From an uncultured Croceicoccus sp. (GTDB taxonomy: Bacteria; Pseudomonadota; Alphaproteobacteria; Sphingomonadales; Sphingomonadaceae): 64,000 nucleotides of DNA. The notes beneath the pieces are model-generated. The model was not told the origin of the DNA, did not search any database, and was given only the letters and a program-made list of their open reading frames with translations. The DNA lies in contig NZ_CANMCP010000001.1 in the NCBI RefSeq assembly GCF_947496385.1, positions 62,001 through 126,000 of the forward strand, read 5' to 3'. Positions 41,266 to 51,971 of the stretch are shown piece after piece (the first letter of the stretch is position 1; every line of letters begins with the position of its first letter). The position numbers and the translations under genes are program-made.

Positions 41266-41994
41266 TCAGACGTAGCCCCGCTCCTTGAGCGAGACGTGGC
41301 CGCTGCTGCTCATGATGATGTGATCGACGACGCTGACGTCCATCAATCGTCCCGCCTCGGCAATGCGATTGGTCAGCTTGATATCGGCCTGGCTCGGCTC
41401 GGGATCGCCGCTCGGATGGTTGTGCACGAGGATCAGCGCGGTCGCCCCGAGGTTGCAGGCCCGGTGAATGACCTCGCGCGGGTGCATGCTGGATTCGCTG
41501 ATGGATCCGTCGCTCAGGTGCTCATCCTTGATAAGTTCCAGCTTGCCATTGAGATAGAGCACGCGCGCCCGCTCGCGCTTCAGATGATTGAGATCGGTGG
41601 CAAGATAATCGAGCAGCGTCTTCCAGTTGTTGAGCACCGGCGCCTGGCGCAATTCGGTCGCGGCGAGGTGTTTCGACGCGACGAGCGCGATTTTCAACGC
41701 GCCGATCACCATGTCGCCGACCCCGTAGATCCGCCGCAATTCGTTCGGATCGGCGTTGAGCAGGGCGGAGATCGACCCGAAATGTTCGAGCAGCCTCTTG
41801 GCCAGCGGCTTGGTATCGCGCCGTTCGATCGCGGCGAAGAGGAGGAATTCGACCACCTCGTAATCGGCCAGCGAGTCATGGTCCCCCTCGATCAGCCGCT
41901 TGCGCAGACGGGCGCGGTGACCCCATCCGGCATGCGTTTTTCGGCCTGTGTCGGCGGGGCGACCGGGCCGCTGCTCGTTGAGCGAGGCGGGCAT
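41266..41994 (-). CDS. radC: RadC-family JAB/MPN-domain protein
   Basis: The protein (242 residues from ATG 41994) has an N-terminal helix-hairpin-helix-like part (FGSISALLNADPNELRRIYGVGD) and the C-terminal RadC domain with the metal motif HNHPSGDPEPSQAD. Despite the name, its role in repair is unclear. The start is uncertain: the usual GHRARLRKRL N-terminus is preceded by unconserved sequence, and a plausible N-terminus (MQDNDQPFEDP) lies in another frame at about 42044, so a frameshift near 41920-41990 is possible. Confidence 0.85.
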   Translation of the reverse strand: MPASLNEQRPGRPADTGRKTHAGWGHRARLRKRLIEGDHDSLADYEVVEFLLFAAIERRDTKPLAKRLLEHFGSISALLNADPNELRRIYGVGDMVIGALKIALVASKHLAATELRQAPVLNNWKTLLDYLATDLNHLKRERARVLYLNGKLELIKDEHLSDGSISESSMHPREVIHRACNLGATALILVHNHPSGDPEPSQADIKLTNRIAEAGRLMDVSVVDHIIMSSSGHVSLKERGYV

Positions 41995-42407
41995 CCTGCT
42001 GCGCCAGGCGCGGGATCCTCGAAAGGCTGGTCGTTGTCCTGCATAGATTCGATCCGCTGCGATTCGGAAAAATTCGTGCCGCTCACGATAACCGGCGCGG
42101 GCAGGTTGGCCACCTTCGATTTTCGCCACGTCGATCACGCCGGGCGAGGCTGGGCGCGCCGCAGAACGTGCCGCACGTGCCGAGGGCGTACCGGTGCGGC
42201 ATGATGCGGCAGGTTCGCCACGGGGGAGCGCAGCCGCCGTGCGCGATCAATCGGGCCGCCACGATGACCGATGCCGATGGACGGCATGCGCGTGAAGCGC
42301 CTATCGGGGCCGACAGGCTGAGCCTGCTGCCGGGAAATTCGTTGGACGCGCGACCGGCGGGGCGGAAACGGGCCGAATGATTACAATGCAATCGAACGGG
42401 ATTTTGC
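41995..42407. other. Gene-free divergent region between radC and the PhnA-like gene
   Basis: No convincing ORF or RNA gene is visible in these 413 bases. They should hold both promoters and possibly the displaced 5' end of radC. Confidence 0.45.
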
Positions 42408-42710: not shown

Positions 42711-43031
42711 CGTGCCGGGGCGGGGCTGCGGATGGTACCCGCCCTCCCGACGATACCGGCGATGACCGGACGGCTACCGTTCGGCGCTGCTTGCGCCCGG
42801 CCCCGCCCGGTGAGCACGTTTCCATGCTGTCGCATCGTATCCTCGCGCGCCAACGCCGGTTGCGTGCTTTTGCCGTTGGGCAAGAGACGGACGGTCTTGA
42901 CGCCCCGGCTGAATTGCGTCGGATGTCCCCGATCTCAGCCGACCAATCTGCGCGCGGGATTGGTTTTTGGCAGTGCTGCGACCGAGAAGTACGGCCTTCA
43001 TGCCTCGCCAGACGCTTGTGGGAAGGGGGGC
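42711..43031. other. Gene-free stretch before tRNA-Thr
   Basis: I see no supported gene. An open frame that runs through the tRNA here is a known kind of artefact. Confidence 0.5.
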
Positions 43032-43107
<76 letters not shown>

Positions 43108-43451
43108 ATACCGCACAAGTCTGCGGTTCCTGAGACTTTCAGGCGCAGATCGGAAGGGCCGCGAGGATCCTTCGAATGCGCCTGGTTCCATTGTTATTCC
43201 ATCCGTATCGCGCCCAGGCCCGACGTGGCGACAGGCAGGACACGCCGCTGATGATCTGCTTCGGCTGATGAGTCAACGCCAGAAAACACGAGGTCATCGG
43301 CGGAGGAGCCTGTTCGCTAGGGCCTCAGGTGGCTTCGTTCGTCGCGGCAGCATACCTGTCACGAAAAAGGATCCGCATATATACAAACGCGGGGGCGCGT
43401 TCCGGCGCGGCGCGCGCATCCGGTCGTTAGCCCGCCGCGCAAGCGATCGGT
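43108..43451. other. Gene-free stretch between tRNA-Thr and the GIY-YIG gene
   Basis: These 344 bases flank the restriction-like cassette. I see no integrase fragment, direct repeat of the tRNA end or terminator that I can defend; AT-richer patches lie at about 43365-43385. Confidence 0.45.
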
Positions 43452-44636
43452 TCAGTCCCTTTCGACGAGCCGAGCCTGCGTGACATCGTATTCGAACCGG
43501 GTGATCGACCCATCCCTTATGCGTTCGACAGCCTCGCCGATCACGTGGATCGGGACCAGGAACCATTCGCGCGGCTGCACGGGATTGCCGAAACGGTCGG
43601 CGATCGAAATGTCGATCTGCGCCGCACCGAAGACGCGGTGGATGAGCCGTTCCAGCTTTGTCCGGTTGATGTTGAAAAGGTGATATTCGGCGACGATCTC
43701 GACCTCCGCCATCAGGAAGGTCGGTTGCCGCCGCGCATCCGCCACGCGCTTTTCGACGCTCATATTGGTGACCCCGATCTTGTGCACGAGATCCCGGTGG
43801 TCGGCGATGAGGGGGTGGTCCGACTTGCTGCGCAGGACGTAGATCGTGCCGCTGGCCTGATCGTCTTCGCCATTTTCGTCCGAAAACAGCGGGCCGGCAT
43901 CCGGGTCGGTGATGCGGCGGCCCGCCTCGTCCTTGTGCAGGGCGCGTTGAAGCGAGCGCATCAGGAGCCTGCTCTGCGTGCCATTGTCGAAAATCACGCG
44001 GAGCCGGGCATCGGACCGCCCCTGCGCATTCGTGAAGATGTCGTCCATCTCGGCGACATAGGCGATCTGGCCGCTCACGATGAACCACGCGCCCGGCCTG
44101 ATTTCGGCCTGGAGTTCGAAGGGGCGGGTGGTGCGTTCCTTGCTGTCGAGTTCGGCCTGAACCTGTTTGAACAACGGCTCGAACGTTCGGAAATCCTTGC
44201 ATTTTTCGCGGTTGGCAACCTCCTCCGCCGCGCGCCGGTCCTCGCCCGATGGCACGTGGCGCAGGACACGAATGTCGTCACCGCCCACAGGCTCGACCCC
44301 CAGTTCGGACAGCAGCATGGAATCGTCGAAGGTTTCGGGCTCGAAACTGTCGTCGACCGCCGGCGCGGCGAGAAGCCCGTGCGTATCGAGCGGCGCGAGC
44401 AGTTCGCGCGCCTCGTCAAGTGCGCGCAAGCGGTCGAGCCGGACGGCATAGATCCGCTCGAATATGTCGCGATCCTCGCCATGCTGCGGCGCGCGGTCGT
44501 TCTGTTCGCGGAAACGGACGATATCTTCGAACCCTGCGATGATCCGTTCCTCGCGCGGCGTATAGGTTCGCGCCTTGACCGGTGCGATGTCGACGCCGAG
44601 CTCGGACAGCAGTTCGTCGTCGGAGAGATCAGCCAT
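43452..44636 (-). CDS. GIY-YIG (T5orf172/MUG113-type) nuclease-like protein, third gene of a restriction-like cassette
   Basis: The 394-residue protein ends in a GIY-YIG domain of the T5orf172/MUG113 branch (about 262-365) with GTIYVL (Tyr266), HKIGVTN, the catalytic-type Arg297 and Glu329 (TKLERLIH), so the active site looks intact. The N-terminal part carries a short motif twice: DDELLSELGV at 6-15 and DDSMLLSELGV at 104-114. ATG 44636 overlaps the helicase stop by 8 bases; longer starts upstream are inside the helicase gene. It is most likely the nuclease of the cassette (inference). Confidence 0.8.
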   Translation of the reverse strand: MADLSDDELLSELGVDIAPVKARTYTPREERIIAGFEDIVRFREQNDRAPQHGEDRDIFERIYAVRLDRLRALDEARELLAPLDTHGLLAAPAVDDSFEPETFDDSMLLSELGVEPVGGDDIRVLRHVPSGEDRRAAEEVANREKCKDFRTFEPLFKQVQAELDSKERTTRPFELQAEIRPGAWFIVSGQIAYVAEMDDIFTNAQGRSDARLRVIFDNGTQSRLLMRSLQRALHKDEAGRRITDPDAGPLFSDENGEDDQASGTIYVLRSKSDHPLIADHRDLVHKIGVTNMSVEKRVADARRQPTFLMAEVEIVAEYHLFNINRTKLERLIHRVFGAAQIDISIADRFGNPVQPREWFLVPIHVIGEAVERIRDGSITRFEYDVTQARLVERD

Positions 44637-46698
44637 GGGCGGCCGCCTGCGCGCGATGGCGGGCAAAAGCGGCGACACCCTCGGCCAGCCGCTTCTCCCA
44701 CGCATCCTGCGACGTGATTTCGGGGAGCCGTCCGCGCTCCTTCTTGAAACGCAAGGCGCGTTCGGCAAGCTCGCGCGCTTCCTCCGGCGGGATCTTGATC
44801 TTCTTCGCGGTGATGACGGATTGTACCTGCTGCAGCACGGTTTTGTTCATCGCCTTGGCGAGCACGGCATAGGCCGCGTCGAACGGATTGATGCTGTCGA
44901 TGAGATCGACGTCGAGATCGCGGACATCCATGGCAAACCTGCGGACCCCGTCGATGAGCGCGGTGTTCGACCGCTCCGTATCACCGTCGGCCATGCCGCT
45001 CGCCACCGCCTTCGCCTTTTGCGTGAGGTTGAGCGCGGAGATCGCGTGTTGCCGCACCGCCTCCTGATCCTCCGTGCTGAGATCGGGATAGCGATCGCGA
45101 ACGATCTTGCCCATCTTGAGCTGGGTCAGCTCCTGCGGCACGGTTTCCTCGTTAAACAGTCCCTGCTCCAGGCTGCTTTTGTCCTGCACGAATTGCGTGA
45201 TGACCTCGTTCAAATCTTCCTTGCAGATCCGCTGCGCCTCATCGCTCTTCGGCTCGACCAGCCCCTTGATTTCGAGATGCAGTTGCCCCGTATCCTCGCG
45301 CACGCCGACGTTCGTTTCGCCGTCCCTGTATCCGCCCGGGCCATAGTCGAAATCGTCGAGCGGGCCTGTATCCTTCGGCGTGAAGGTGAAGCGGGGGGCC
45401 AGCACCTGCTCCATGAGCAGGCTGGCCGCGATCGCTTTCAACGTATCGTTGATCGCGCCTGCGACGGCGGCTTCGGATGCGTCCGGCTCGGCGATGAGAT
45501 TGGTGAAGCTCGACCGCGCCTTGCCGGGGGCATCGCGCGTCGCCCGCCCGATGATCTGGATGATCTCGGTCAGGCTCGACCGGTATCCCACCGTCAGCGC
45601 ATGCTCGCACCAGATCCAGTCGAAGCCCTCCTTCGCCATGCCGAGCGCGATGATGATATCGACATGATCGCGGTTCCCCCGCTGCGCCGGATCCTTGAGC
45701 GCGGAGAGCACCTTGTTCCGCCGCGACGGGTCGCTGTCGTCGACGAGATCCGCGATCCTCACGATCCGCCCGTCCGCCGTGCGCACATGATGAAAGCCGG
45801 TGACGGGGTCGGCCATCTGCCAGTCCCCGACGCTTTCCATGATATGCTCGACCTCCTTCACCTTGTCCTTCGTGCTTTCGCGCGCGTTGACCGACGGGAT
45901 GTGCACGATCGTCTTGCGCGCCGGGTCGAGCACCGCCTCGATCGCGTCGAGATAGCGACCGGTGTAGAAGAAATACCCGATGTCGAGCGCTTTGAGATGC
46001 TCGTACCCGTTGAGCTGCTCGTAATAGGTGTAGGTGACGGTCTCGAACTTCGCCTCGTCCTCCGGGGTGAGCACGGGCACCGCGTCGCCGCGAAAATAGC
46101 TTCCGGTCATCGCCACGACATGCACCTTGTCGCGGCGGATGAATTCGGCAAGCTGACTGCCAAGGCGATTGTCCTCGCTGGCGGAAACGTGGTGAAATTC
46201 GTCCACCGCGATCAACCGACCGTCGAACGCCTCCACGCCCATCTTCTCCACCGCGAAACGGAACGTCGCATGGGTACACACCAGCACGCGGTCCTCGCTG
46301 TCGAGGAACTGTCCCACCGCGCGGACCTTTGAGGAATCGACGCGCTCCTCGTCCGCGCCGGGCGCATTGCACAGGTTCCATTGCGGCTTCACGGTCCAGT
46401 CGGCCCAGAACCCGAACCGGCTGAGCGGCTCGTCCGAGAAGCTGCCGCCGATCGATTTTTCCGGCACCACGATGATCGCCTGGCGCAGCCCCTGATGATG
46501 GAGCTTGTCGAGCGCGATGAACATCAGCGCGCGCGATTTGCCCGACGCCGGCGGCGACTTGATCAGCAGATATTGCTCGCCCCGCCGGGAATAGGCGCGC
46601 TCCTGCATCGGGCGCATGCCCATCTCGTTCGCGCGGGAGGAAACGCCCGTGCGCGCCGTTGCGATGGATACGGCGGGGATCGGCTTGGCGGATGTCAT
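44629..46698 (-). CDS. SF2 helicase/translocase of the restriction-like cassette
   Basis: The 689-residue protein has Walker A SPPASGKS (48-55), motif II DEFH (166-169), a TGSYF motif III position and QIIGRATRDA as motif VI. It resembles the Res-type ATPases of type III and type I restriction systems and the YeeB-like helicases that accompany MmeI-family methyltransferases. No nuclease domain is visible in its C-terminal ~250 residues. AAGGAAC precedes ATG 46698, 50 bases after the methyltransferase stop. Confidence 0.85.
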   Translation of the reverse strand: MTSAKPIPAVSIATARTGVSSRANEMGMRPMQERAYSRRGEQYLLIKSPPASGKSRALMFIALDKLHHQGLRQAIIVVPEKSIGGSFSDEPLSRFGFWADWTVKPQWNLCNAPGADEERVDSSKVRAVGQFLDSEDRVLVCTHATFRFAVEKMGVEAFDGRLIAVDEFHHVSASEDNRLGSQLAEFIRRDKVHVVAMTGSYFRGDAVPVLTPEDEAKFETVTYTYYEQLNGYEHLKALDIGYFFYTGRYLDAIEAVLDPARKTIVHIPSVNARESTKDKVKEVEHIMESVGDWQMADPVTGFHHVRTADGRIVRIADLVDDSDPSRRNKVLSALKDPAQRGNRDHVDIIIALGMAKEGFDWIWCEHALTVGYRSSLTEIIQIIGRATRDAPGKARSSFTNLIAEPDASEAAVAGAINDTLKAIAASLLMEQVLAPRFTFTPKDTGPLDDFDYGPGGYRDGETNVGVREDTGQLHLEIKGLVEPKSDEAQRICKEDLNEVITQFVQDKSSLEQGLFNEETVPQELTQLKMGKIVRDRYPDLSTEDQEAVRQHAISALNLTQKAKAVASGMADGDTERSNTALIDGVRRFAMDVRDLDVDLIDSINPFDAAYAVLAKAMNKTVLQQVQSVITAKKIKIPPEEARELAERALRFKKERGRLPEITSQDAWEKRLAEGVAAFARHRAQAAAHG

Positions 46699-46748
46699 GA
46701 TACGGTTCCTTGGGCAGGGGCCATGCGGGCGCCATGCGGGGGCGTCGT

Positions 46749-49499
46749 CTACGCGGCGGCCCTGGCGGTCATTTTCGTGTAGAGTTCGAAGAGCTTTTCA
46801 AGGCGTTCGGTGTCGTTGCGGAACCGGCGCCCGATATAGATGCGTTCGAGCACCTCGTCATTCTCCTCATGCGCGCGGCGCAGATTGTCGGGCATGGCGT
46901 CGGGATCGTAGAGATCGGCGATGGTGGCCGGGAAATGCGCTTCGCGGGCGAGCAGGATATTCTCGGCACAGCGGGTGAGGTCGGCCTTGTTCTGCTCGGT
47001 GAGTTTGGGAAGGGGAAAGGTGTTCCAGCCGAGCGTGTTGGAGTATGCAAAGTCAGTACGGGTTCTTCCGCAAACGGTAGCAATCCACGTGCGATGTATG
47101 CGGGAGGCCAAACACGCAAGAACCCAAAGGTCTGGGTCGTATATCGCAAAATTCTGACTGCTTACGATGGCCCCTTCCTCAATGAGACCTACCGGCAAAT
47201 ACGGTCGGCGTTCTGAAGTTATCCTAGGGATTATAATTGCAGCCTCATTTCCCTTTTGTCTCACTTCTCCGAAAGCGAAAGGAGTATCTGCCAAAGCATT
47301 TGTCGCTGAACGGTTTGAAGCCAATCTTGCGGATCGAACTTGCTCAAACCGAGAGTTGAAGAATGGGTTTTCAGATGCGGTTGAGGCATCCTCGGCCCGT
47401 ACCCAAATGCAATATTTTTGAATCCCGTTGATAAACTCCTGCGAACCAATGAACTGTCGGATAAATCGCTCATCTGCGTCAGCTTCTAACTTTGCAGAGC
47501 GTGCTTCCTCACGGGATAACAATAACGCACCTCGATCGTTCGGCATATTGCCAAATGACATTTCCGGGGCGTCGAATAGTGAAGCGCGCGAAGCCGAAAC
47601 TTCTATGTTTGGGGCCGCGACCAAATATCCATTGATGTTCTCAGCTTCCTTAATGACGTGTTCGCCGTCGACATCGAAATACAAGGTGGCGGACCTCTCT
47701 TTGTGTGGACTAAGCCCAACAATGGAAACGGTCACACCAGCGTTATGAGAAGCAAGATTTTTCCAAAGAAAAGAAGGAGCCGCGAAAAAAATTCGGATGC
47801 CGCGAGAAAATATGGGGGACCACAAAAACTCGACCTGTCTTCCTTGGTTTATGGAATTTGTGGCAACGAATGCCGCCAGCCCATCGTTTTCAGTGATGTA
47901 TTTCGTTGCCTTGGCAAACCAGCCTGCAACGTAATCTAGAGCCTTAGTAGATTCTGAGATGCCTTCGAACGCAATTTCGAGATCAATTTTCTGTTCGGAC
48001 GACTGCTGCTGACTCCCTCGATAAGGCGGATTCCCGCAGATATACGTCTCACCCCCGGCATTCTCGAAATCGATCTCCGACTGGTCCAGCGGCGTTTCGA
48101 GCAGGTCGTCGCCGCGCATCTTCACCCCCGTCCCGGTCGGCGGGCAGATGCTCAGCCAGTCGAGCCGCAGCGCATTGCCGCAGGTGATCCAGTTGTCCGA
48201 ATCCAGCGGCAGAAACTCGGCCAGCGCCTCCTTCTGCCCGCGATAGAGGACGTCGCACTGATACTCCGCGATGATGAGCGCGAGCCGCGCGATCTCGGCC
48301 GGAAAATCGCGCAGTTCGATGCCGCGAAAATTGGTCAGCGGAATGTCCGTCTTGCGGTCGGGCTCGCCGCGCCGGCGGTTGATCTCCGCCTCGATCCCGC
48401 GCATTTCCTTATACGCGATGACGAGGAAATTCCCGCTCCCGCAGGCCGGGTCGAACACCCGGATCTTGGCCATCCGCGCCCGCAGGTTGCGCAGCTTGCG
48501 CGCATTGTCGCCCGCCTCCTCCAGCCGCCCGCGCAGATCGTCGAGGAACAGCGGGTTCAGCACCTTGAGGATGTTCGGCACGCTCGTGTAATGCATGCCG
48601 AGCGCGCCGCGCTCCTCGTCATCGGCGACGGCCTGGATCATGCTGCCGAAAATATCGGGGTTGATCCTGGTCCAGTCGAGATTGCCGATGTGGATGAGAT
48701 AGGACCGGGCGATCTTGCTGAACCGGGGGACGTCGATGCTGCCGCTGAACAGATTGCCGTTCACATAGGGGAAGCCGTCGGCCCAGCGGGGGATGCCCGC
48801 CTCCGCCCGCGCCGCGATGGGCGTGTTCATCGCGCGGAAAAGCTCCGCGATGACGTCCGCTGTATTGTCCGCGCCGCCTGCGCTCATCCTCTCCACCGTG
48901 GCGGTAAAGCGGTGGCCGGGGTGGAAGATGTCGGTATCCTCGGCAAAGAAGCAGAAGATCAGCCGGGCCATGAAATGGTTCATGTCGGTGCGGCGTTCGG
49001 GCGCGGCCCATTCGGGATTGTCCTGCAGCAGCGTCACGTAAAGCTTGTTGAGCCGCCCCGTCGCGCGGATGTCGAACGAGCTTTCGCGGATCTGTTCGAC
49101 CGTGGTGATGCCGGCGAGCGGGAGGAAGAAGCCGAAATGATCGGGGAATGCGGCGTATTCGCAGACGACCGTTTCGCCGCTGACCATATCCTCGGCCTGA
49201 AAGTCGTGGCCGTCGGTGGCGAGGATGAACTTGGCCTTGTGGGTGACGCTTTTCGGGCTGTTGCGCAGGGCATCGAGCGTCGCGGCGACGCGGCCCGGTG
49301 CGGCGATCGCCATGTGGATATTGCTGCGTTGAAGCACGCCGCCGGCGATGTCCGACTGATTGGTGTTGCCCTTTTTCAGGCGGTCGATCGTGGTTTTCCT
49401 GTTCCCGAAGGCGGCGAGGAACTGAAACGGGAATTCCGCACCATCGAACGGGGCGGCGGCGAGCTGGGTGACAGCGTCTTCGATCTCGACGGGGTTCAT
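46749..49499 (-). CDS. MmeI/DnmA-family N6-adenine DNA methyltransferase with exchanged recognition domain
   Basis: The 916-residue protein has an N-terminal domain in the MmeI nuclease position (no clear E-x-K found), a helical spacer, and SAM motif I FDPACGSGNF at about 349-358. Motif IV NPPY is at 490-493. A target-recognition region runs to about residue 820 and a C-terminal helical domain beginning NTLGWNTFPLPKL ends the protein. The DNA for residues about 490-820 is clearly AT-richer than both flanks. First gene of the cassette; it should set its specificity and protect host DNA. B. subtilis DnmA (YeeA) is a characterised relative in a similar three-gene arrangement. Confidence 0.88.
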   Translation of the reverse strand: MNPVEIEDAVTQLAAAPFDGAEFPFQFLAAFGNRKTTIDRLKKGNTNQSDIAGGVLQRSNIHMAIAAPGRVAATLDALRNSPKSVTHKAKFILATDGHDFQAEDMVSGETVVCEYAAFPDHFGFFLPLAGITTVEQIRESSFDIRATGRLNKLYVTLLQDNPEWAAPERRTDMNHFMARLIFCFFAEDTDIFHPGHRFTATVERMSAGGADNTADVIAELFRAMNTPIAARAEAGIPRWADGFPYVNGNLFSGSIDVPRFSKIARSYLIHIGNLDWTRINPDIFGSMIQAVADDEERGALGMHYTSVPNILKVLNPLFLDDLRGRLEEAGDNARKLRNLRARMAKIRVFDPACGSGNFLVIAYKEMRGIEAEINRRRGEPDRKTDIPLTNFRGIELRDFPAEIARLALIIAEYQCDVLYRGQKEALAEFLPLDSDNWITCGNALRLDWLSICPPTGTGVKMRGDDLLETPLDQSEIDFENAGGETYICGNPPYRGSQQQSSEQKIDLEIAFEGISESTKALDYVAGWFAKATKYITENDGLAAFVATNSINQGRQVEFLWSPIFSRGIRIFFAAPSFLWKNLASHNAGVTVSIVGLSPHKERSATLYFDVDGEHVIKEAENINGYLVAAPNIEVSASRASLFDAPEMSFGNMPNDRGALLLSREEARSAKLEADADERFIRQFIGSQEFINGIQKYCIWVRAEDASTASENPFFNSRFEQVRSARLASNRSATNALADTPFAFGEVRQKGNEAAIIIPRITSERRPYLPVGLIEEGAIVSSQNFAIYDPDLWVLACLASRIHRTWIATVCGRTRTDFAYSNTLGWNTFPLPKLTEQNKADLTRCAENILLAREAHFPATIADLYDPDAMPDNLRRAHEENDEVLERIYIGRRFRNDTERLEKLFELYTKMTARAAA

Positions 49500-49758
49500 G
49501 CCAACTCTCTATCGCCTGGCCACGCCGGTGTCACGCGGCCGAAGCGGGCGGCGGGCCGGGGCTTGCGCGCCTTGTCGTGCTCTCTGGCGAGGAGCGGGGG
49601 TGGGGTCCGGTCCGGGCCTAAGACGAACGGGCCGCGCCCGTCCCGTGAAGGGGATGGCCGGGGCAGGGCTTTGGTTCGTAATGCGCGACCGGAAATACCT
49701 GCCCGCGTCGCGAGCCTTTGCGCGAATGCAAGCGTTCGGGCGCCCGCCCGGTCGTGGG

Positions 49759-50637
49759 TCAGGGCACGCCGAAGGTCCACCCCTCGGTCGCGGCAATCGC
49801 GGCGCTCAGGCTCTGTGGCTCCCATAATTCGGGGCGATCCGCGGCGGTGCGGAGCCATGCCGCGGTAAGGAGCGCGTCGGCGCTGTGGTCGTCGATCGGG
49901 CCGCGGCGCGCAACCGCGGCGCTGCCCAGGGCGTGAAGGCCTGCGTTCAGCGATGCGCAATCGGTCATCTTGCTGCGCGCGGCGGTGCGTCCGGCGGCGA
50001 TCGCCGCAAGCGCGGTATAGATTTCCACGATCACCGAACCGCCTTCGGGCAGGGGATCGATCGGCCAGACCGGAACCGCCCCGCCAAGCCGTGCAAGGAC
50101 CCGCATGCCCGTCAGGCTGGATTTGCCGACCTGCGCCGCGCCGACGAGGTTGAAGTTGGAGTAGGGCTTGCACCCCTGCTGTTCCTGCGCCCATTCGGTG
50201 ACCCGGAACCGGCCCCGGCGATGGGTGGCATGGGGGTGGTGGAACGCCGCCCCCTCGCGCCCGCCATGCCGCCGGAAATACGCGCTGAGCCGGGGATGAT
50301 CGACAAGGCTGCCGACCTCCAGATTGGGGTCATCGGCGCAGATCGTATCGACCATCTGCCACAGCGCGCGGGCATTGGCGGGGCTATCCGACCAACCGGG
50401 GAAATACGCCCCGCAATCGGCAAAGGGCAGCGCAATGCCGAGATCCATGCCGACCAGCGTGCCGGGCGCAAGCTCGTTGCGCAACCATTCCAGAACCTCG
50501 CCGCGCGACCACGGCCTGTCCCTTTGGACGAGCGTCGGCGGGCCATCGCCTGTGCATTGCGCGACGGCGATACCGCGTTGGCGTTCCCCCTTCGCGCCGG
50601 ACCAGTCGATCGCCGCGAAATGGCGAAACCGGCTCAT
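49759..50637 (-). CDS. RNase H-fold (DUF429-like) protein coupled to rarA
   Basis: The 292-residue protein has acidic residues at RNase H-fold positions: AIDWSGAKG (about residue 9), LVGMDLGIALPF, VIVEIYTALAA and DDHSADALLTAAW. This points to a RuvC/DUF429-like nuclease fold, although family assignment by eye is tentative. ATG 50637 overlaps the rarA stop (ATGA), so the two are translated together. Its activity is unknown. Confidence 0.7.
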   Translation of the reverse strand: MSRFRHFAAIDWSGAKGERQRGIAVAQCTGDGPPTLVQRDRPWSRGEVLEWLRNELAPGTLVGMDLGIALPFADCGAYFPGWSDSPANARALWQMVDTICADDPNLEVGSLVDHPRLSAYFRRHGGREGAAFHHPHATHRRGRFRVTEWAQEQQGCKPYSNFNLVGAAQVGKSSLTGMRVLARLGGAVPVWPIDPLPEGGSVIVEIYTALAAIAAGRTAARSKMTDCASLNAGLHALGSAAVARRGPIDDHSADALLTAAWLRTAADRPELWEPQSLSAAIAATEGWTFGVP

Positions 50638-51971
50638 CCCTCGCCGGACGGCCCGCGCATGTCGCGGCGGCGCGCGTCCCACCATTCCATGCGTTCGGCT
50701 ATGCGCTTTTCAAAACCGCGCGCGACGGGGCGGTAATATTCCTGCGCCGCCATGTCCTCGGGCCAGTAATCCGCGCCTGAAAACCCGTCATCCGCATCGT
50801 GGTCATAGGCGTAATTCTTGCCGTAGCCGATGTCCTTCATCAGCTTTGTCGGCGCGTTCAGGATGTTTTGCGGCGGCATCAGGCTGCCAGTTTCCTTCGC
50901 GCTTTTCCACGCGGCCTTCATGGCCTTGTACGCCGCGTTCGATTTTGGCGCGGTCGCGCAATACAGGCACGCCTGCACGATGGCGAGCTCACCCTCCGGC
51001 GACCCGAGAAATTCGTAGGAATCCTTCGCCGCGAGACATTGCACCAGCGCGTTGGGATCGGCGAGGCCGATATCCTCCGACGCGAACCGGACCAGCCGGC
51101 GCAATACGTAGAGCGGCTCCTCCCCCGCGGTCAGCATCCGGGCGAGATAGTAGAGCGCGGCCTGCGCATCCGACCCGCGCAGCGATTTATGCAACGCGGA
51201 AATCAAATTGTAATGCCCGTCGCGATCCTTGTCATAGACCGCGACGCGCCGTTGCAGGAACCGGCCGAGCGCCGCGGGATCGAGGGGTGCGTCGATCCCC
51301 GCGGCATAGAGCGTTTCGGCCTGATTGAGCAGGAACCGCCCGTCCCCGTCCGCCGATGCGACAAGCGCGGCGCGCGCATCGGGATCGAGCGGAAGCGGCT
51401 GCTCCATCAGATCCTCCGCCTTCGACAAAAGCGCGGACAGCGCGTCCGACCCCAACCGTTCGAGGATCAGCACCTGCGCCCGCGACAGCAGCGCGGCGTT
51501 GAGTGCAAAGCTCGGATTTTCGGTCGTCGCGCCGACCAGCGTGACCGTGCCGCGTTCGACGAAGGGGAGGAAGCCATCCTGTTGCGCCCGGTTGAAACGG
51601 TGGATCTCGTCCACGAAGAGCAGGGTCCGTTGCCCCGCTTCGCGCGCGCGCTCGGCCTCGGCAAAGGCTTTCTTGAGGTCGGCGACGCCGGAAAAGACCG
51701 CGCTGACCGAAATGAACCGCATGCCCACCGCATCGGCGAGGAGGCGCGCGATGCTGGTCTTGCCCGTGCCCGGAGGCCCCCACAGGATCATCGAGGTCAG
51801 CCGCCCCGCCGCCACCATGCGCCCGATCGTGCCATCCGCGCCGGTCAGGTGATCCTGACCGACAACATCGGCCAGCGTCGCCGGGCGCAACCTGTCGGCG
51901 AGCGGGGCATCCGCTGCGGCGGGGGACGGCGACGGCGAGGGGGGCGGGTCGGATTGAAAAAGGTCGGCCAT
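50634..51971 (-). CDS. rarA: Replication-associated recombination protein RarA (MgsA)
   Basis: The 445-residue AAA+ ATPase acts at stalled replication forks. It has Walker A GPPGTGKTS, Walker B FVDEIHRFN, sensor 1 GATTENPSF and the C-terminal tetramer region GSPEGELAIVQACLYCA. The next gene starts in its stop. Confidence 0.96.
   Translation of the reverse strand: MADLFQSDPPPSPSPSPAAADAPLADRLRPATLADVVGQDHLTGADGTIGRMVAAGRLTSMILWGPPGTGKTSIARLLADAVGMRFISVSAVFSGVADLKKAFAEAERAREAGQRTLLFVDEIHRFNRAQQDGFLPFVERGTVTLVGATTENPSFALNAALLSRAQVLILERLGSDALSALLSKAEDLMEQPLPLDPDARAALVASADGDGRFLLNQAETLYAAGIDAPLDPAALGRFLQRRVAVYDKDRDGHYNLISALHKSLRGSDAQAALYYLARMLTAGEEPLYVLRRLVRFASEDIGLADPNALVQCLAAKDSYEFLGSPEGELAIVQACLYCATAPKSNAAYKAMKAAWKSAKETGSLMPPQNILNAPTKLMKDIGYGKNYAYDHDADDGFSGADYWPEDMAAQEYYRPVARGFEKRIAERMEWWDARRRDMRGPSGEG

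Follow-up and report, generated by a model that had tools for sequence, protein, structure and literature searches.

The window, a 64,000-nucleotide stretch from an uncultured Croceicoccus sp. (contig NZ_CANMCP010000001.1, positions 62,001 to 126,000), carries at 43452-49499 on the minus strand a leftward trio of open reading frames (ORFs), all of them open, which encode a DNA methyltransferase, a helicase and a GIY-YIG protein in that order. A sequence-only reading of the same DNA had placed a three-gene cassette at exactly this span and had seen in it a split enzyme, composed of a methylase, a separate helicase and a separate GIY-YIG nuclease; the families, motifs and gene overlap that it named were all recovered, and the split-enzyme idea is supported by what follows.

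The first gene (46749..49499, -) encodes a 916-residue N6-adenine DNA methyltransferase of the MmeI/DnmA family, in which all five MmeI domains were matched in Pfam (MmeI_Mtase at 375 bits) and for which MmeI itself (5hr4) was the only match among the sequences of solved structures, aligned from residue 90 on at 448.8 bits. The domains, all on the minus strand, are MmeI_N (aa 1-159, 49023..49499), a dead PD-(D/E)XK nuclease domain according to the alignment, the helical spacer MmeI_hel (aa 172-251, 48747..48986), the methyltransferase domain with its FDPACGSGNF and NPPY motifs (aa 326-607, 47679..48524), the fast-diverging target recognition domain (TRD) MmeI_TRD (aa 629-833, 47001..47615), and MmeI_C (aa 836-912, 46764..46994), the most conserved part of the protein. 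After a 50-bp gap (46699..46748, -), the empty state of an accessory-gene slot discussed below, follows a 689-residue YeeB-like superfamily 2 (SF2) helicase or translocase (44629..46698, -), which starts directly with the motor, its motifs beginning at about residue 8, and includes the Walker A sequence SPPASGKS (aa 48-55, 46534..46557, -), DEFHH and QIIGRATRDA. It gave weak Pfam matches only (DEAD, ResIII, PMBR and Helicase_C, 18.7-27.2 bits) and matched no solved structure by sequence up to E 0.1; no nuclease family was matched at E 0.1 in Pfam, PADLOC or NCBIfam, though a diverged one could escape these profiles. A single place in the host genome (3.34 Mb, 55 contigs) matches the helicase.

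The third gene (43452..44636, -) encodes a YeeC-like putative nuclease subunit of 394 residues if read from its ATG (in the ORF list the frame begins further upstream, with a TTG at 44768), with T5orf172 and MUG113 matched in Pfam and the catalytic GIY-YIG domain at the C-terminus (aa 261-392, 43461..43856, -). Its Y266, R297 and E329 are invariant in 74 aligned sequences, so the residue numbers given in the earlier reading are correct, and the second Tyr of "YIG" is likewise invariantly replaced by Lys (HKIG). The motor residues in 80 aligned helicases, and the methylase motifs among relatives, are similarly invariant or nearly so.

Helicase and GIY-YIG genes overlap by 8 bp (44629..44636, -), the helicase stop and the GIY-YIG ATG sharing ATGGCTGA. 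An overlap of this length was seen in 91 of 99 loci, with ATGGCTGA as its commonest form (39 loci). In a profile comparison with hhalign, a helical segment at the helicase C-terminus (aa 632-672, 44683..44805, -) matched the helical N-terminus of the GIY-YIG protein (aa 21-64, 44445..44576, -) at a probability of 51% and E 1.5e-4, while 19 other segment pairs reached at most 1.1% and E 0.048; this single short match is suggestive of a shared helical motif. The AlphaFold model of the helicase (predicted local distance difference test, pLDDT, 77.0; predicted template modelling score, pTM, 0.67) comprises a generic SF2 motor and a helical C-terminal part, and that of the GIY-YIG protein (mean pLDDT 82.8, pTM 0.43) helical N-terminal parts, a small beta barrel (aa 184-242, 43911..44087, -) and the GIY-YIG domain. 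The latter protein gave chance-level matches only to solved structures by sequence (E 0.19 or worse). Its barrel was weakly matched by Foldseek to the EF-P/eIF5A-like domain I of 5wxk_B (root-mean-square deviation 1.6 over 49 columns, E 0.019), and from this modelled likeness it might bind nucleic acid.

Lack of co-conservation in other genomes had been named in the sequence-only reading as a result that would refute it; the genome-neighbourhood survey found the three genes co-conserved. The helicase search yielded at least 574 relatives, of which the best 80 loci were kept, and 39 further genome stretches were added; in total, 103 loci contain the helicase, a set that leans towards near relatives of the helicase in the window. 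Across the best 80 of the at least 574 relatives the helicase is 70-87% identical over the best segment, with Alteriqipengyuania (87%) and Erythrobacter (84%) as the closest named sources among the matches listed, which points to a sphingomonad host, probably one of the Erythrobacter group; 79 of these 80 are nearly full length, the exception (L052) ending at residue 605. A methylase gene lies upstream on the same strand in 101 of the 103 loci and a GIY-YIG gene downstream in 100, its open frame beginning at most 81 bp past the helicase stop. The two loci lacking a methylase (L013 and L038) offer just 1.0-1.5 kb of upstream sequence, two lacking the GIY-YIG gene (L052 and L062) reach a contig end before it, and one GIY-YIG match is weak (L140, 55 bits). 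Among 385 genomes drawn from the class, the MmeI-type methylase domain was found in 46 (E <= 1e-20) and the helicase in 17, the window's own genome included, and all 17 also carry the MmeI-type methylase domain. Matches to the helicase also occur on plasmids, in 184 of 72,556 records, and in Escherichia coli, in 96 of 5,426 complete genomes; in 150 of these plasmid records and 88 of these genomes the match spans 80% or more of the helicase. All three genes and the 8-bp overlap were present in the three E. coli loci and the one plasmid locus viewed. These E. coli cassettes (L213, L214 and L215) adjoin island-type genes, namely an intF integrase, an IS66 element and conjugation genes.

Linkage to the helicase goes together with loss of the nuclease residues in the methylase. 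The window protein was aligned with 103 methylases of more than 700 residues, 91 of them beside a helicase gene and 12 not, and the columns of MmeI D70, E80 and K82, numbered as in the relevant part of PMC4833311, were located via an unlinked relative. The unlinked proteins stem from 13 strong helicase-less places, two of which are broken or short, with 28 weaker places resembling more distant methylases left out; one of the 12 (L163) was set aside, as the helicase sits on another contig of that genome. The D-E-K triad is present in none of the 92 helicase-linked methylases (the window's included) and in all 11 helicase-less close relatives examined, and a loose pattern, D-x8-12-[DE]-x-K within the first 180-200 residues, occurs in 5 of the 92 and 9 of the 11. 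In the alignment rows shown, a GGVLQ-x-x-NIHI-like segment replaces the active site of MmeI_N. The dead domain is nevertheless kept at 64% mean identity to the window, compared with 69% for the methylase domain and 85% for MmeI_C, and it is therefore proposed, from conservation without catalytic residues, that it probably serves as the dock for the restriction arm. According to PMC7261158, in the part that cites Morgan 2009, such homologues without the nuclease motif and flanked by yeeB- and yeeC-like genes had been noticed before.

Some side observations concern the same family. The widely used PADLOC profile PDLC03598 (REase_MTase_IIG), which the window methylase matches at 915 bits, is named Type IIG restriction enzyme-methyltransferase and would over-call Type IIG here, the triad being absent. 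One locus (L148:4648-10293) has an intact D-E-K MmeI-type enzyme at the end of a 1881-residue open frame, read stop to stop, over whose first 950 residues Pfam gives nothing at E 1, and a helicase-linked methylase elsewhere (L048:3740-7210) bears about 240 extra N-terminal residues in its open frame, likewise with no Pfam match.

The TRD is the least conserved methylase domain, with a mean identity to the window of 41% compared with 64-85% elsewhere in the protein. Over 88 loci, pairwise distances agree between methylase core and helicase (r 0.79), helicase and GIY-YIG protein (r 0.88) and methylase core and GIY-YIG protein (r 0.75; Mantel p 0.001 in each case), whereas TRD distances hardly track those of the helicase (r 0.10, p 0.049), and the 13 determinant positions form 78 distinct strings among 92 proteins. 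The TRD thus varies independently of the remaining cassette. The target of the window enzyme was read at the equivalent residues with the MmeI code, as set out in the pertinent part of PMC4833311. Arg and Glu at the equivalents of 723 and 738 suggest C at position 1, and Met at that of 645 suggests A at position 2; Arg with Ser at 751/773 (the published pair is Lys or Arg with Asp) probably specifies G at position 3, and Arg-Asp at 806/808 (published pair Lys-Asp) probably G at position 6, while Gln at 774 and Ala at 810 make position 4 uninterpretable with this code. The resulting prediction, 5'-CAGNAG with the last A methylated, is tentative and more apt to fail than to hold, the code having been applied with no control enzyme of known target; the window may in particular depart from the code because Thr at 805 and Ala at 810 each occur in a single protein of the 92.

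The gap between methylase and helicase, empty in the window, serves as an accessory-gene slot in about half of the relatives. It exceeds 300 bp and holds extra ORFs in 50 of the 101 loci having both genes, the helicase start being placed by a motif or by the open frame, an approximation that affects short gaps only. By source, the slot is occupied in 37 of 78 evaluable loci from the helicase search, 7 of 17 from the class draw and all 6 other genus copies, and still in 34 of 77 when one locus is taken per group of at least 90% helicase identity. The first extra gene starts within a 4-bp overlap with the methylase stop in 30 of the 50, and turnover is fast, as two Pseudomonas loci with helicases 97.6% identical have a YhcG gene (L030) and a mere 54 bp (L024), respectively. 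In total, 72 extra ORFs fall into 28 groups, although some short ones may not be genes and two (L011c1 and L134c1) are fragments; a further one (L141c0) represents the latter half of an interrupted methylase, which brings the slot of L141 down from 3.3 to about 2.2 kb.

Nine of 20 accessory representatives matched Pfam above the family cut-off, namely with YhcG/DUF1016, RhuM, SLFN_AlbA_2, GmrSD_N, PDDEXK_4, Fic, HEPN, DUF3800 and AAA_15. Of ten accessory proteins with no Pfam match that were compared with the PADLOC models, one was matched (PDC-S67), and a GIY-like stretch spotted by eye in one accessory family (L011:5190-6377) has no match in Pfam. Plasmid relatives of the YhcG (81.5% identical, one region) and RhuM proteins (49-60%, three regions) sit between the methylase and specificity-subunit genes of type I-like operons in all four regions viewed, two of which were chosen because the match line said so, with 26 other listed rows lying outside. 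PrrC, which is embedded in a type I locus, acts upon inhibition of the enzyme, according to portions of PMC12707154 and PMC3874165, and by analogy the slot genes may plausibly serve as guards that come into action once the core has been inhibited. Fragments of a helicase start and a methylase end lie between two extra genes in L011 (6374-6571) and L134, and a short methylase-end fragment between extra genes in L141; these look like junction scars left by stacking through recombination between cassettes. No published description of the accessory slot of this cassette was found in a search of titles and passages, outside which most subscription journals lay.

The surroundings of the cassette bear on its history. 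It is bordered by a tRNA-Thr(TGT) gene (43032..43107, -), and a terminator-like hairpin 3' of the last gene (43373..43392, -) is not significant against shuffles; promoter and terminator scans gave nothing above shuffled sequences (three terminator-like sites found vs 6.8 expected). In one sister genome (G011, rarA 99% identical), the interval from radC to the rarA-like gene holds a partial helicase with one stop and a partial GIY-YIG gene, having lost about 0.5 kb inside the latter and 4.2 kb covering the methylase and the helicase start, and a second (G003, 97%) retains a 128-bp remnant of 72.7% identity at the same locus; both carry other copies elsewhere, with helicases 69-70% identical. 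These eroded remnants indicate that the window copy is probably a cassette of long residence that has survived intact here, and that the type turns over. A recent insertion at the tRNA-Thr gene was considered and dropped, since no direct repeat of this gene was found within 42800-51000 and the sister remnants lie at the same place, which together favour old presence and loss. A phage origin was rejected as well, only two partial matches (24% of the query) having been found among 50,697 phage records; relatives of the helicase are nevertheless encoded on 43 viral contigs of IMG/VR (L170-L212), one branch of them at 42-49% identity. Close to the tRNA-Thr gene lies a second RadC-like gene (41266-42138), which is 57% identical to the genome's other RadC and, among 13 genus relatives, has a 94-96% match only in the two sisters above.

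Taken together, the three proteins likely constitute a split restriction-modification system that works in the manner of Type I, ISP and III enzymes. The methylase would recognise an asymmetric site roughly six bases long and methylate one adenine and thus one strand, as judged from its B. subtilis relative, DnmA, for which methylation of GACGmAG is reported in a section of PMC7261158. Its conserved dead nuclease domain would dock the restriction arm, the co-translated helicase and GIY-YIG pair, into a complex; at an unmodified site the helicase would be loaded and would move or slide along the DNA driven by ATP, and the GIY-YIG subunit would cut. Methylation of one strand leaves one daughter duplex unmarked after replication and is by itself no protection for a replicating chromosome, so cutting would be expected to depend on a pair of unmodified sites that face opposite ways, as with Type III and Type ISP enzymes. 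Passages of PMC3874165 make the case that one-strand-marking enzymes must compare oppositely oriented sites, for which Type ISP and III enzymes use a motor, and part of PMC4490356 gives this opposite-site logic for EcoP15I; the tie of a motor to a one-strand methylase fits such an ATP-dependent two-site mechanism. Exchange of the recognition domain would change the target and keep the rest of the cassette, which is the pattern observed, and the slot genes, which about half of the examined relatives carry and some of which are of types also lodged in type I operons, may guard the core. According to the account in PMC9973331 of a Vibrio crassostreae study, deletion of dnmA or yeeB left the bacteria more sensitive to phages of some clades.

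Several observations weigh against this split-enzyme reading. Other phage clades were unaffected in the same Vibrio deletions (cited in PMC9973331), and according to portions of PMC9973331 and PMC7261158, deletion of yeeB or yeeC in B. subtilis changed neither growth nor the plaquing of three phages, deletion of dnmA left plasmid uptake unchanged, and phages do not avoid DnmA sites. Within the survey, L056, a locus whose slot is occupied by an AAA_15 gene, has no recognisable GIY-YIG gene despite ample downstream sequence. By Foldseek, the helicase model is best matched by Pol theta, Brr2, Hel308 and MrfA, with HsdR only at rank 27, and the GIY-YIG model had no match in the PDB at E <= 0.001 among the best 50 of 814. 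Docking by the dead domain is proposed from its conservation, and 11 of the 20 accessory representatives had no Pfam match, so that a link of these to defence would be conjecture.

The B. subtilis phenotypes also speak for the likeliest alternative, a functional orphan as proposed for that species, in which the methylase alone regulates genes and the helicase and GIY-YIG protein are relics; the eroded remnants in the two sisters show, moreover, that the copy at the window locus is dispensable. This reading is unlikely, since the active-site residues of motor (80 sequences) and GIY-YIG protein (74) show little or no variation, all three frames are open in the window, the helicase is 70-87% identical in the best 80 of at least 574, and the sister G011 lost its methylase along with the 5' part of the helicase rather than retaining the methylase alone.

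Helicase-centred defence without cleavage exists, and a BREX- or DISARM-like exclusion, with methylation marking self and the helicase blocking phage replication without cutting, would agree with methylase profile matches to DrmMI of up to 97.7 bits and weakly to PglX, and with a helicase match to PbeA at 18.6 bits. It is nonetheless improbable: the GIY-YIG gene is kept nearly as tightly as the methylase (100 vs 101 of 103) with its catalytic set intact, the scores with the NCBIfam models of PglX (11.8-23.5 bits) lie far below the cut-offs of 400-900, and at E 0.1 the helicase gave weak matches to PbeA and PDC-S19 but none to any model of DISARM or BREX. Least probable is a Type IV-like or independent nuclease pair that acts on, e.g., damaged or modified DNA. 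In its favour, the helicase and GIY-YIG genes form one translational unit that other genes can part from the methylase; against it, the methylase lies upstream in 101 of 103 loci of a set weighted towards close helicase relatives, the two exceptions having just 1.0-1.5 kb upstream, and methylase-core and helicase distances agree.

The split restriction-modification reading can be carried further, to a more doubtful model of a modular chassis. A former Type IIL enzyme, its dead nuclease domain docking the helicase and GIY-YIG arm, would offer an interchangeable guard slot, which effectors (nucleases, Fic, HEPN, AAA_15) might enter through recombination in the conserved sequences that end the methylase gene and begin the helicase gene, and where they would stack and fire when phages disable the core. 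As part of the same tentative model, helicase and GIY-YIG partners would share a small helical domain.

Among known systems, the cassette is a member of the dnmA-yeeB-yeeC kind and not a new system, with an MmeI-family methylase devoid of PD-(D/E)XK residues, an SF2 helicase downstream on the same strand and a T5orf172/GIY-YIG gene second downstream of the methylase. The likeness to yeeA-yeeB-yeeC drawn in the sequence-only reading is thereby borne out, the B. subtilis cassette having the same three families in the same order according to sections of PMC7261158 and PMC9973331, and so is its remark that restriction had not been shown there, PMC9973331 reporting in its phage section no effect with three phages; its suggestion of a distinct system falls, as the cassette, its synteny and a Type I-like restriction-modification proposal appear in the same two papers. 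This likeness is judged by description, not alignment, and the targets differ, the published GACGAG standing against the predicted CAGNAG-like site; YeeB and YeeC of B. subtilis also lack stretches of their C-terminal part, as described in part of PMC9973331. The DnmA-YeeB-YeeC cassette of V. crassostreae, with its phage phenotype on deletion, is the same by its description as cited in PMC9973331.

MmeI and other Type IIL enzymes share the five-domain methylase and TRD code, with published modification of one strand. However, MmeI cuts with its own D70-E80-K82 nuclease, as detailed in part of PMC4833311, while the window methylase is without these residues and lies next to helicase and GIY-YIG genes, so that an active nuclease and methylase in one polypeptide, as in Type IIG and IIL, are not found. 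Type ISP (LlaGI) and Type III (EcoP15I) enzymes resemble the cassette in the asymmetric site and SF2 motor, according to passages of PMC3874165 and PMC4490356, but combine motor and PD-(D/E)XK or Mrr-like nuclease in one protein. The window has a separate GIY-YIG protein, with three ORFs in place of the single ISP polypeptide of nuclease, translocase, methylase and TRD, and a helicase with no nuclease family match in place of a Res subunit with its own PD-(D/E)XK domain. Type I systems (HsdRMS) with PrrC, RhuM or YhcG likewise have several subunits, an SF2 motor and similar embedded genes; here there is no HsdS, the TRD lies inside the methylase, and no HsdR-type N-terminal nuclease is present. 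With respect to BREX, the matches to its PglX component are weak.

On whether DnmA-YeeB-YeeC is a live restriction system, the results from B. subtilis are negative and those from Vibrio reportedly positive for some phages. The nuclease trade-off, conserved active sites, independent TRDs and restriction-modification-type cargo suggest that B. subtilis may be the exception, and the three-gene cassettes in E. coli islands make restriction easily testable. To the known cassette are added here the trade-off counts, the linkage, the 8-bp overlap, the accessory slot, the independent TRD variation and the sister remnants. The window cassette is a well-preserved member of this known kind, and what merits further attention in it is the slot for accessory genes together with the trade-off as counted here.

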